From a virus, in the IMG/VR virus record IMGVR_UViG_3300030090_003512, positions 1 to 55,451 of that record: DNA of 55,451 nucleotides; one strand, 5' to 3'. Position numbers and translations under genes: made by a program. The notes under the pieces were generated by a model. It was not told where the DNA came from. It made no database searches and was given only the letters and a program-made list of their open reading frames with translations. Positions 1,359-55,306 of this stretch are shown here, one piece after another (the first letter of the stretch is position 1; every line of letters starts with the position of its first letter).

Positions 1359-1405
1359 TTCCTTGAAAATTATTAACAACGGTTGCAATTAAAGTTTGTA
1401 ACACA

Positions 1406-1413
1406 TATATTTG
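1406..1413 (+). promoter_or_regulatory. Bacteroidota-type -7 element, plus strand
   Basis: TATATTTG matches the TAnnTTTG -7 consensus of Bacteroidota sigma factors. A TTGC lies 19 bases upstream (1383-1386) at -33 spacing. The ATG at 1422 follows eight bases after the element, so the leader would be a few bases at most. Confidence 0.5.
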
Positions 1414-4486: not shown

Positions 4487-6257
4487 TCTATACAGCAAAG
4501 ACTCTCCTAACTATATTTCTTTAGAGCAATGCTTAGAAAGAGTAAAGTCTGGTAAGCAAAAAGATGCTATAGAAAAAATAAGAGGGGGAGACAAATCTTT
4601 AAAGTCAAAGCTGCCTGTTGTTTTATTTAGTGGGAAGTTCAATGAACGCAAGGACTCTTCGCTGATAAAACACAGTGGCTACATTGTCCTGGACTTCGAT
4701 CACATTGATGTAGACAACAGCAAAGCTGTGCTTGCTCTAGATCCTTTTGTCAAAGCCTGCTGGGTTAGCCCTTCTGGTGACGGGTTAAAAGCTGTTGTAA
4801 AGGTTACAAACTCAGAGAATCATAGAGATCATTTCAGAGCTCTTGTAGAATACTTTGATAACAAGTATAATCTAGAGGTTGATAGCACAGGTATCAATGA
4901 AAGTAGGGCATGCTTTGAAAGCTATGATCCTGACGCTGTTATCAAGATAGAGTCAGAGCCTTTTGGGAAGATGCTTTTTGAAGATATCCCTAAGACTCAA
5001 GTAGCTGAGGTAAAGGAAATATCTACAGACTACACTAAGCTACACCTTGCAGCTAGGATGATACGCAACGCTCCTGACGGAGAAAAGCACAACGTACTTC
5101 TGAAAGCTTCTATACTTATGGGTGGGTACATATCTGTGGGTAGGGTAGATGAGCTTGAAGCATATCGTGTTTTAGAGCGTGAGATAGAGCTCCGTGAAGT
5201 TGACGATATGTACGTCGCTAGGAATACTATTCGTGACGGTATAGAGCGTGGCAAGATGGCGCCTATACATGAAACGATAGAGGCAGAAGAGGAAGCGCAA
5301 AGAGAGTTACTACTATCAGACGGCGACATGTCGTTTATGAGTTCCGATGTAGAAGATCTAGACTGGATTATTAGATACAAAAACGGAGAAATAGAGAAGG
5401 GGTGTGGTACAGGCAATGTCCTGTTTGATAAAAACTTTATCTACAAAAAAGAGTTTGTTATGATCTCAGGTCATAGCTCTGTAGGTAAAACTACCTTTAT
5501 GCTGTACATGATGGTTACTATAGCAGTAAACCATAGTTGGGTATGGGTTATTTATTCCTCTGAAAACAAAACTGCTAACGTCAAGATCAAACTTATGCAG
5601 TTTGCTTGTGGCAAGTCTCTAGACGAAATGACTGAGGGGGAGGTAAGGTACATGATGAAGTGGGTGTCAAAGCATTTTATCCTTATAGACAATACTAAAA
5701 TGCTTAGCTACGCAGACCTACTTGTTTATACTGAAAAGATAACTAGGCACAGGAAGATAGATGGATTACTAATAGATCCATACAATTCGCTCAAGGTTGC
5801 TCTTACATCGAACAAGTCAGGATCTGCCTTCGAGTACCACTACGAAGCCGCTGGTGCGTTCCTTACATTTTGTAATAGGTTAGACATAGCTGTATGGGTA
5901 AATGCACACTCAATTACATCAGCTCAAAGGCAAAAAGGTGACGACGGTCAACCTGTTGCACCTCTAGCCCCTGACACAGAGTACGGTGGTATGTGGGTTA
6001 ATAGAGCCGACTGCTTCTTAACAATACACAGAAAGATACATCATCCAGACGTAGAAAAGCGTAGTAGGACAGAGTTTCATGTACGTAAAGTCAGGGAGCA
6101 AGAAACTGGTGGAGAGCCAACAGCAATAGACGATCCATTCTACTTTGACTTCAATGCAAATCACGCAGGATTTACTATGACAGGCCCCTTCTCATCACTC
6201 TATCAACATATTAACATAGAAGATGTTGATAAACAGCTAGAGTTTGAACACTTTTAA
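4467..6257 (+). CDS. Bifunctional primase-helicase (BT4734-like primase plus RecA-type helicase)
   Basis: 596 residues. The N-terminal half has the archaeo-eukaryotic primase features of the BT4734/VirE family: YIVLDFDHID with D76 and D78, and SPSGDGLKAVVKV (101-113). The C-terminal half is a RecA/DnaB-type ATPase with Walker A GHSSVGKT (335-342) and Walker B IDGLLIDPYNSL (aspartate about 437), then an NAHS sensor-like motif. It should unwind DNA at the fork and make primers. No DNA polymerase is visible here, so it probably works with the host polymerase. Starts 20 bases inside the DnaA-like gene. Confidence 0.8.
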   Translation: MLTIYRDLYSKDSPNYISLEQCLERVKSGKQKDAIEKIRGGDKSLKSKLPVVLFSGKFNERKDSSLIKHSGYIVLDFDHIDVDNSKAVLALDPFVKACWVSPSGDGLKAVVKVTNSENHRDHFRALVEYFDNKYNLEVDSTGINESRACFESYDPDAVIKIESEPFGKMLFEDIPKTQVAEVKEISTDYTKLHLAARMIRNAPDGEKHNVLLKASILMGGYISVGRVDELEAYRVLEREIELREVDDMYVARNTIRDGIERGKMAPIHETIEAEEEAQRELLLSDGDMSFMSSDVEDLDWIIRYKNGEIEKGCGTGNVLFDKNFIYKKEFVMISGHSSVGKTTFMLYMMVTIAVNHSWVWVIYSSENKTANVKIKLMQFACGKSLDEMTEGEVRYMMKWVSKHFILIDNTKMLSYADLLVYTEKITRHRKIDGLLIDPYNSLKVALTSNKSGSAFEYHYEAAGAFLTFCNRLDIAVWVNAHSITSAQRQKGDDGQPVAPLAPDTEYGGMWVNRADCFLTIHRKIHHPDVEKRSRTEFHVRKVREQETGGEPTAIDDPFYFDFNANHAGFTMTGPFSSLYQHINIEDVDKQLEFEHF

Positions 6258-53022: not shown

Positions 53023-53092
53023 CGCCTCACAACGTACGAGCCCATTGAAATACGTGGGATAAGTGGCAGAGAACACACTGAATTACAACGGC

Positions 53093-53110
53093 GCACGGGT
53101 AAAGCCGTGC
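53093..53110 (+). terminator. Small GC hairpin, possible attenuator
   Basis: GCACGG (53093-53098) and CCGTGC (53105-53110) form a 6-bp stem with a six-base loop, followed by CCTAAATTTT. It lies between the first and second small genes. The U-run is short, so termination is likely partial. Confidence 0.4.
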
Positions 53111-53142
53111 CCTAAATTTTAATAAATAAAACCTTTTCAATA

Positions 53143-53862: not shown

Positions 53863-54012
53863 ATGAAGAAATTTATTATCATCAGAATCGCTAGACTTAT
53901 TAGAAGAAAGGTGCACGTTGCAAAGAATATGCAACTAAAACACATAAACTATATGTATGACTACAACTATTTTAAGCTACTTAAATCTTACTATAAAGCA
54001 TTAATGTTATGA
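53863..54012 (+). CDS. Small basic tyrosine-rich protein (49 aa)
   Basis: 49 residues: basic amphipathic start (MKKFIIIRIARLIRRKVHVA) and a tyrosine-rich helix (YMYDYNYFKLLKSYYKAL). ATGA overlap with the next gene. Might associate with membrane or nucleic acid; unknown. Confidence 0.5.
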   Translation: MKKFIIIRIARLIRRKVHVAKNMQLKHINYMYDYNYFKLLKSYYKALML

Positions 54013-54308
54013 GCAAGGAATTATTCAAAACAATTGAAGCACAAGGTCGTTTAATTACTGAACTGCGTGGCGAATTAGAGAATAGGAAAGTGTATGCTGT
54101 CCACGTAATGGACTCACTATTGGACTACTCAGAACAAAAACTATTTACAAACTATTCAGATGCTTTACATGAGTTTCAATGTGCTGTTAATGAAGCAAAA
54201 AGCGACGATAGGATAAAAGAAATCTATACATATGAGGAAGGTGCGCTATACTATCAAGGCGATGAAAGTTCTGTAAAGATATTTATAGAAGAACTTATAA
54301 TAAACTAA
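54009..54308 (+). CDS. Small acidic hypothetical protein
   Basis: 99 residues. N-terminal coiled coil (IEAQGRLITELRGELENRKV) similar to the gene at 622. The rest has a helix with SEQKLFTNYSDALHEFQCAV and a beta end (KIFIEELIIN). Function unknown. Followed by a structured RNA-like spacer. Confidence 0.55.
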   Translation: MSKELFKTIEAQGRLITELRGELENRKVYAVHVMDSLLDYSEQKLFTNYSDALHEFQCAVNEAKSDDRIKEIYTYEEGALYYQGDESSVKIFIEELIIN

Positions 54309-54310
54309 AT

Positions 54311-54384
54311 AACAAGGCGAGCACACTGCCTAGACGTAGGAGGAAGGAGAGTGTTAGGGTTTGGAGCCAGCCTTGTTGTTTTTA
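54311..54384 (+). ncRNA. Putative structured RNA, about 74 nt
   Basis: AACAAGGC (54311-54318) pairs perfectly with GCCTTGTT (54370-54377), followed by a GTTTTT run. Inside, ACACT (54323-54327) pairs with AGTGT (54350-54354), enclosing CCTA-GACG-TAGG (54329-54340). The result is a closed, branched RNA ending in a U-run, in a 93-base gap between genes. It could be a small RNA with its own terminator or a cis-acting leader element. Confidence 0.5.
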
Positions 54385-54401
54385 ATTAAAACCAATAAAA
54401 C

Positions 54402-54674
54402 ATGGATATTAAGAAAGAACTTATTGAGAATCTTGCTCAATGTATGACAAAAAATCCAAGCGTATATGCGCATCAATTACTTACTCTGCGCTATCAATTA
54501 AATGACTTGCAGTCGAACTACGATTGGCTAGAGGCTGAGATGGAAATGCATCGTGATAGCTATGAAGGTATGGACGCAAGCCATAGAGCCGAATTGAGAG
54601 ACAAACATCACACAGCAAGGCGTGACTATTACGAGAATTTAAGGCAGTTAAAAGCACAATACTTAGAATCATGA
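54402..54674 (+). CDS. Small coiled-coil hypothetical protein
   Basis: 90 residues, nearly all helical (TLRYQLNDLQSNYDWLEAEM, ARRDYYENLRQLKAQYL). No family recognised. Preceded by the short form of the repeated leader; four-base overlap with the next gene. Confidence 0.55.
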   Translation: MDIKKELIENLAQCMTKNPSVYAHQLLTLRYQLNDLQSNYDWLEAEMEMHRDSYEGMDASHRAELRDKHHTARRDYYENLRQLKAQYLES

Positions 54675-55306
54675 AACAATTTACAAAAACACAAAAGCTA
54701 GTGTATGCTATGCTTACAGAAAGCACAGGTATTCACTTCTTAGATAGTGGAGGTACAAAAAATAGAATGTGGCAACGTAATAAACTCAAGACTATCGAGG
54801 ACTTTGATAATGAACAAGAGCAAACTATTGAGAAGTCTGAATGGACTGACAAAGACGGAAAGGTACACACCGAGTACGAGCGCACCGTTTCAGTATTCCA
54901 TTACCTGAGCGAATTAGAATTGGATCACGTGTGTGATAAGTTCAACGAACTCAACACGGACTGCCTAGAATGGGGTGGGGATATATCGTGGGGAGTATGT
55001 CAAGCAGGTGCTGACTTCTTAGAACTAATCAATATGGAAAGCAAACATCAATTCAATACATACAATGGAGATAGCGACCTATCCCAAGTGTTACAGGGTT
55101 CGTGGCTAGAGATGGACGGAGAGCCGTACCTACTCTTACAAATACATGGAGGTGCTGATGTCAGGGGCGGTTATACAGATGCTAAACTATTCAAACCAAG
55201 TGATGATTGGATAATACACCCATACTTACAAGAGTACATAGATAGCAATGAAATTGAGGAAGAATACGAATTATACCATGAAGAAAACCAAACCAAAACA
55301 AAATGA
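54671..55306 (+). CDS. Conserved phage protein of unknown function
   Basis: 211 residues. AMLTESTGIHFLDSGGTKNR, MWQRN, TVSVFHYLSELELDHVCDKF and LLLQIHGGADVRGGYTDAKL are conserved landmarks of a hypothetical family seen in phages of several phyla. The HGGADVRGGYT stretch suggests a folded alpha/beta domain, but no activity is known to me. C-terminus acidic. Overlaps genes on both sides by four bases. Confidence 0.65.
   Translation: MKQFTKTQKLVYAMLTESTGIHFLDSGGTKNRMWQRNKLKTIEDFDNEQEQTIEKSEWTDKDGKVHTEYERTVSVFHYLSELELDHVCDKFNELNTDCLEWGGDISWGVCQAGADFLELINMESKHQFNTYNGDSDLSQVLQGSWLEMDGEPYLLLQIHGGADVRGGYTDAKLFKPSDDWIIHPYLQEYIDSNEIEEEYELYHEENQTKTK

Follow-up and report, generated by a model that had tools for sequence, protein, structure and literature searches.

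What might a compact structured RNA do in a gap between two small phage genes? The question is raised by a virus record of 55,451 bases, analyzed whole and referred to here as the window, which carries genes for a terminase, a portal protein, an ERF-type annealing protein, and a primase-helicase. The window terminase is 39 to 48% identical to those of the best-listed named records, mainly Flavobacterium elemo phages (∼39%), and 73 to 95% identical to those of five IMG/VR records. The small-gene region that holds the element is likely to be expressed early, as judged from its place and strand beside replication-type genes. An earlier note, made from the letters alone, had described a closing stem around two nested stems, considered it more elaborate than a terminator, and suggested a regulatory RNA made early in infection.

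The closing stem is as the note described it: AACAAGGC (54311–54318) is perfectly complementary to GCCTTGTT (54370–54377) and GTTTTT follows directly, while at full length the stem (P1) has 11 pairs (54308–54318 with 54370–54380), one U.G included. The gap, likewise held to be too short for a gene, is real; it measures 93 nt from the ORF end at 54308 to the ORF start at 54402 and is mostly taken up by the element (table below). It is one among three long gaps in a tightly packed, same-strand row of ten ORFs, picked by a gap script at 52.8 to 55.4 kb, in which successive gaps are 120, 89, 12, 12, 4, −4, 93, −4, and −4 nt. A 211-aa protein of unknown function (54671–55306; PHROG 11344) is encoded nearby, and its relatives (34 to 37% identity) occur in Mycobacterium, Gordonia, and Erythrobacter phages.

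Features of the element and its neighbors in the window (the RNA parts are predicted)
Feature	Position	Strand	Remarks
Upstream small ORF	54009–54308	+	99 aa; no Pfam or PHROG match
P1, 5′ strand	54308–54318	+	11 pairs, of which 54311–54318 is the perfect 8-bp part; starts at the final base of the upstream ORF's stop codon
Junction strand GAGC	54319–54322	+	GAAC in L151 and L301; alignment A5
P2, 5′ strand ACAC	54323–54326	+	Extra fifth pair, 54327–54350, in the window copy
Inner 2-bp helix of the P2 arm, 5′ strand CC	54329–54330	+	One pair double-changed versus relatives; RNAalifold
Inner 2-bp helix of the P2 arm, 3′ strand GG	54346–54347	+	Three-copy pair count; RNAalifold
Conserved AGA preceding the P2 3′ strand	54348–54350	+	Alignment A5
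P2, 3′ strand GTGT	54351–54354	+	Three-copy pair count
Conserved AGG, junction between the arms	54356–54358	+	Alignment A5
P4 arm	54359–54367	+	3 weak pairs in the window versus 6 in L151 and L301; alignment gap of 9 nt
P1, 3′ strand	54370–54380	+	Complementarity; 11-pair stem
U-run at the foot of P1	54379–54383	+	In all three copies
AAAACCAATAA leader	54388–54398	+	Common to other early genes of the same phage group
Downstream small ORF	54402–54674	+	90 aa; no Pfam or PHROG match

As a single sequence the element is only modestly unusual. The fold energy of 54311–54384 has a z score of −1.13 and is equalled by 23 of 200 shuffles, and that of 54308–54380, with the full closing stem, has a z score of −2.85 and is equalled by 1 of 200. 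Stems of at least 8 pairs enclosing 30 to 75 nt arose in 20 of 2,000 dinucleotide shuffles of the 93-nt gap; the whole window has 12 (6 on each strand), fewer than the 15.2 averaged over 20 shuffles, and the 8-pair stem by itself is therefore unremarkable. Such a stem followed by TTTTT occurs once in the window, against a shuffle mean of 0.25.

Comparison with relatives is more informative. Copies with the same layout occur in two related virus records: L151 (5322–5405), found by short-word blastn among 226 fetched loci, and L301 (1426–1509), found by a gapped pattern derived from the window and L151 copies. These two differ at 3 of 84 positions, all within P1, where one A-U/G-C pair is changed on both sides and there is one G-C/G-U change. 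Their interior of ∼60 nt is identical, and the surrounding 299-nt block is 93% identical. The identity of the interior suggests something more than a plain hairpin, but because the sequence farther downstream is 98% identical, it could also reflect a recent exchange. The interior of the window copy diverges strongly from both. A covariance model built from L151 and L301 only (R2), with the window left out to avoid circularity, recovered the window copy at 33.1 bits (E of 2.9e-6; 17 sources, 221 kb) and otherwise only its own parents; its E-values are rough, and the match is somewhat weakened by the choice of L151 for its likeness to the window.

Compensatory changes in related phages, named in the earlier note as one way to check the fold, were found in these three sequences, and no stem is broken. 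The structure in alignment A5 has 20 consensus pairs (P1, 11; P2, 4; inner helix, 2; P4, 3), with standard pairs in all 59 cells of the three copies and changes on both sides in 5 pairs, where shuffles average 1.6; when the partners are slid, pairing drops to 23 to 40%. An alternative count, with a P1 of 12 pairs and a P4 of 6 and without the inner helix, gives 4 pairs changed on both sides. In P1, all pairs are standard where present, one being changed on both sides and two on one side. The P2 pair 54323–54354 is A-U in the window and G-C in L151 and L301, and one pair of the inner helix is changed on both sides between the window and these two. Unpaired positions kept in all three copies include GA.C after P1, AGA before the 3′ strand of P2, AGG between the arms, and the U-run. 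Because the covariation comes from three sequences, two of them near-identical, from which the structure was also derived, and because their alignment is interrupted by 9 nt in P4, the predicted arms are suggestive and P1 is better supported; the P4 arm is the weakest part of the structure model. As to the two inner stems of the earlier note, the three-copy comparison favors two arms, whereas for the single sequence the minimum-energy structure is one irregular hairpin (−22.7 kcal/mol), with the branched alternative (−21.8 kcal/mol) only ∼1 kcal/mol away. A pseudoknot of the a-b-a′-b′ type (CCTA with TAGG after P2), considered by eye, was rejected, the order of the strands making the linker too short to span both helices.

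The family appears small within the sequences searched. A model of all three copies (R1), run over 182 sources (90 and 92; 1.26 and 0.87 Mb), returned these three and no further convincing one; the other matches were an echo on the reverse strand of L301 and two taken as chance, at L217 5063 (within an ORF) and L289 6552 (E of 2.7). In 50 whole related records, R1 matched two, the known L151 and L301; this set corresponds to 54 loci less L121, L123, L125, and L233, with the record of L121 covered through L223. Among the four contigs from the gapped pattern, L299 and L302 were taken as chance. Another 28 contigs retrieved by patterns (4 viral and 24 genome contigs) yielded no convincing copy, a weak match in a bacterial MAG (L317) being taken as chance. 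The exact core pattern had no match in viral contigs, and the stem-only pattern had at least 119 unspecific matches and was discarded as evidence. Blastn of the element region against named phages found no match, and that of the L301 copy found only short chance matches. Rfam 15 gave no match at gathering score in the whole window, two weak matches in 54200–54500 at E up to 10, both outside the element, and three weak matches, far below cut-off, in the L301 copy; "unmatched" is used here for absence from Rfam 15 and makes no broader claim of unpublished status.

A functionless hairpin that travels with gene cassettes would be compatible with this rarity (2 of 50 whole related records), with the weak single-sequence fold of 54311–54384, and with a stem length no commoner than chance in the window. 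We nevertheless consider it very unlikely: compensatory changes occur with no broken pair, the R2 model matches a copy that it was not built from, and the element is kept at two different sites. The branched fold of ∼75 letters is a real, evolutionarily kept RNA, and its conservation in three copies bears out the impression that it is more elaborate than a plain terminator.

The sites themselves vary among relatives. The site GGTAACGAAA/ACCAATAA is empty in the window, L134, and L227 and filled in L301 and L151, and the site ATAATAAAC/CAATAAAA is empty in L151 and L152 and filled in the window. The genes 3′ of the element differ in each of the three records, and the one relative found of the downstream 90-aa protein (51%) has no element in front of it; the element is therefore not bound to one protein. 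Cassette exchange at the AAAACCAATAA leaders is a likely route of movement.

The pattern TTG-N17-23-TAnnTTTG, which we take to be the flavobacterial-type promoter, is absent from the plus strand at 52.7 to 55.4 kb, where other promoter types were covered by a generic sigma-70 pattern. Elsewhere in the window (1383–1413), TTG-N20-TATATTTG, a pattern of this promoter type, stands directly before an ATG, and a similar stretch precedes an ATG in L122, L151, L152, and L158. Many bacterial small RNAs have a size and U-run like those of the element, and it might accordingly act in trans as a small regulatory RNA whose own 3′ end is formed at the U-run. This is highly improbable given the lack of a flavobacterial-type promoter nearby, the embedding in an operon, and an interior that differs strongly between the window and L151/L301. 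The early regulatory RNA of the earlier note is therefore retained only in its timing, which is likely, and not as a separate RNA; a cis-acting role fits better because of the promoter result, the operon position, and the varying neighbor genes.

The reading that we prefer, at about even confidence, is that the element is a cis-acting cistron-boundary RNA of the presumed early transcript. It joins what is observed (the fold, its homologues, the U-run, and presence or absence at sites) to an inferred polycistronic transcription and an inferred 3′ end formed by partial termination or processing. The element would be transcribed within a polycistronic early message and fold after the upstream gene, so that the upstream message would end in a stable structure through partial factor-independent termination at the U-run, RNase processing, or both, and the downstream gene would retain a AAAACCAATAA leader of its own. 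These phages would draw on a set of exchangeable boundary RNAs, in which the element stands beside long A-U hairpins, tRNA-like RNAs, and hammerhead-like ribozymes. Against this, strong termination at the element would silence the genes behind it, for which the gap shows no promoter, and neither termination nor processing needs an interior conserved as in L151 and L301.

A simpler proposal is a plain intrinsic terminator or attenuator with a large branched head, of which only P1 and the U-run matter. The U-run does touch P1 in all three copies and is mirrored by an A-rich stretch on the 5′ side, but P1 has an A-U-rich foot, and a simple terminator scan, limited to loops of 3 to 8 and thereby excluding the element, does not list it. 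The terminator half of the boundary mechanism is weak on the same two grounds. A plain terminator also leaves unexplained why the interior is identical in L151 and L301 and why both partners of a P2 pair have changed. In relatives, a U-run is lacking from several of the structured RNAs that occupy similar gaps. We regard a plain terminator as unlikely.

In the stretches examined of 13 relatives, strong folds are frequent in the long gaps that separate small early genes: long A-U hairpins, a tRNA-like RNA, and hammerhead-like motifs. A scan for the last, requiring all core bases and three stems, gave 29 matches in 17 of the loci scanned (2.13 Mb in all), whereas a single shuffle of the whole set gave 1; two loci were re-fetched copies, and 27 matches in 15 records remain after their removal. 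All lie on the operon sense strand, and most are predicted to be type I with an open stem I. They occur at L125 4257, L126 3802, L265 4039, L151 4995, and L230 2732 and 4960, as well as in L218, L224, L251, L252, L262, L268, L271, L277, L278, and L290. In L151 (∼4985–5125), stem III carries a structured insert of ∼90 nt; kinship of the element to this insert was considered by eye, and R1 gave no match there. In L227 (4377–4497), stems I and III and the insert are kept and the catalytic core is gone, leaving a plain hairpin.

Further folds accompany these. Long A-U-rich hairpins in early-gene gaps (L124 3172–3258 and 4448–4532, L125 5619, L228 741, L265 6004, and L126 7354) are near-identical in L124 (both copies), L125, L228, and L265 and similar in L126. 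A tRNA-like RNA at 2454–2528 of the window, preceded by a hairpin, has a 7-bp acceptor, a canonical T arm, and an odd middle; ARAGORN does not call it, and the same or a similar RNA occurs in 12 sources from 9 records. The leader at 53023–53142 has a hairpin whose stem is double-changed among relatives (AGCCCG/CGGGCT versus AGCCAA/TTGGCT), then a second hairpin, replaced by a larger fold in L121, and an A-T-rich tail. A 47-nt AGCGGAG...CTCCGCT element, with five copies in the stretch of L128 that was read (2944, 3253, 3674, 4818, and 5215), apparently forms two hairpins inside a closing stem, with compensatory changes and no relevant Rfam match.

Hammerhead-like ribozymes in the same genetic setting, and the conserved, unpaired, purine-rich joints of the element, raise the idea that it may belong to an undescribed class of self-cleaving ribozymes and, like hammerheads, cut the early transcript at cistron boundaries. 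Among eight loci scanned, Rfam Hammerhead_II exceeded the cut-off in L230, whereas L126 stayed below it for both RAGATH-1-hammerhead (35.8 bits; cut-off, 56.3) and Hammerhead_1 (25.2 bits; cut-off, 34). The window, however, has no match to RF00163, none to type P1 twister (RF03160) at E up to 10, and none by motif script to the core CUGANGA...GAAA with stems I, II, and III; no conserved candidate cleavage site was found in the element, an HDV-like reading fails for want of a P1 strand 5′ of the closing stem, and a conserved U-run would be unexpected. A ribozyme thus seems quite improbable, and we are very doubtful of a new small self-cleaving class, with a three-way junction and purine-rich joints, that would replace hammerheads between early genes of flavobacterial-type phages. 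Were the element catalytic, interest in it would rise sharply.

The boundary RNA that we propose adds a small, unmatched fold to the structured RNAs known from gaps between small genes of phages; in the group concerned, hammerhead-like motifs are common. Should the fold cleave or set RNA ends, these phages would be handy for studying why RNAs sit between genes. Like intrinsic terminators, it has a U-run directly after a stem, but it differs in its large branched head, A-U-rich foot, and conserved interior. T7 has RNase III sites between its early genes, and these are likewise structured RNAs that lie between early cistrons and could set the ends of mRNAs, but the element lacks a long double strand. 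Theta ribozymes, as a part of their description has it, are small RNA elements of gut phages, mostly with Bacteroidota hosts, that have an HDV-like fold, adjoin tRNAs, and act on phage transcripts (PMC10879173); the element, by contrast, lies between protein genes in a window where ARAGORN calls no tRNA or tmRNA. Hammerheads of phage and prophage gene clusters likewise are compact RNAs set in gaps among small phage genes, and a genome often has several; in prophages they cluster around single genes, and transcript processing has been suggested, with phage hammerheads proposed to cut long transcripts into shorter mRNAs (Perreault et al. 2011, PMC3088659, in part). The element, known here from sequence only, differs in its joints and its U-run and has no CUGANGA/GAAA core. 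What structured RNAs between phage genes are for is left open in the portion of that 2011 survey drawn on here (PMC3088659), and a literature search combining hammerhead ribozyme, phage, and Bacteroidetes found nothing relevant. The element has no match among the RAGATH families of Rfam 15 (E up to 10), but like RAGATH RNAs, the majority of which have no known function according to part of one source (PMC11061315), it is a candidate structured RNA in the same kind of gene neighborhood. By the RAGATH-type criterion, it is a conserved structured RNA in a hammerhead gene neighborhood, L151 carrying both the element and a hammerhead-like motif (4995). The new candidate family is real but small and lies in a familiar kind of setting.
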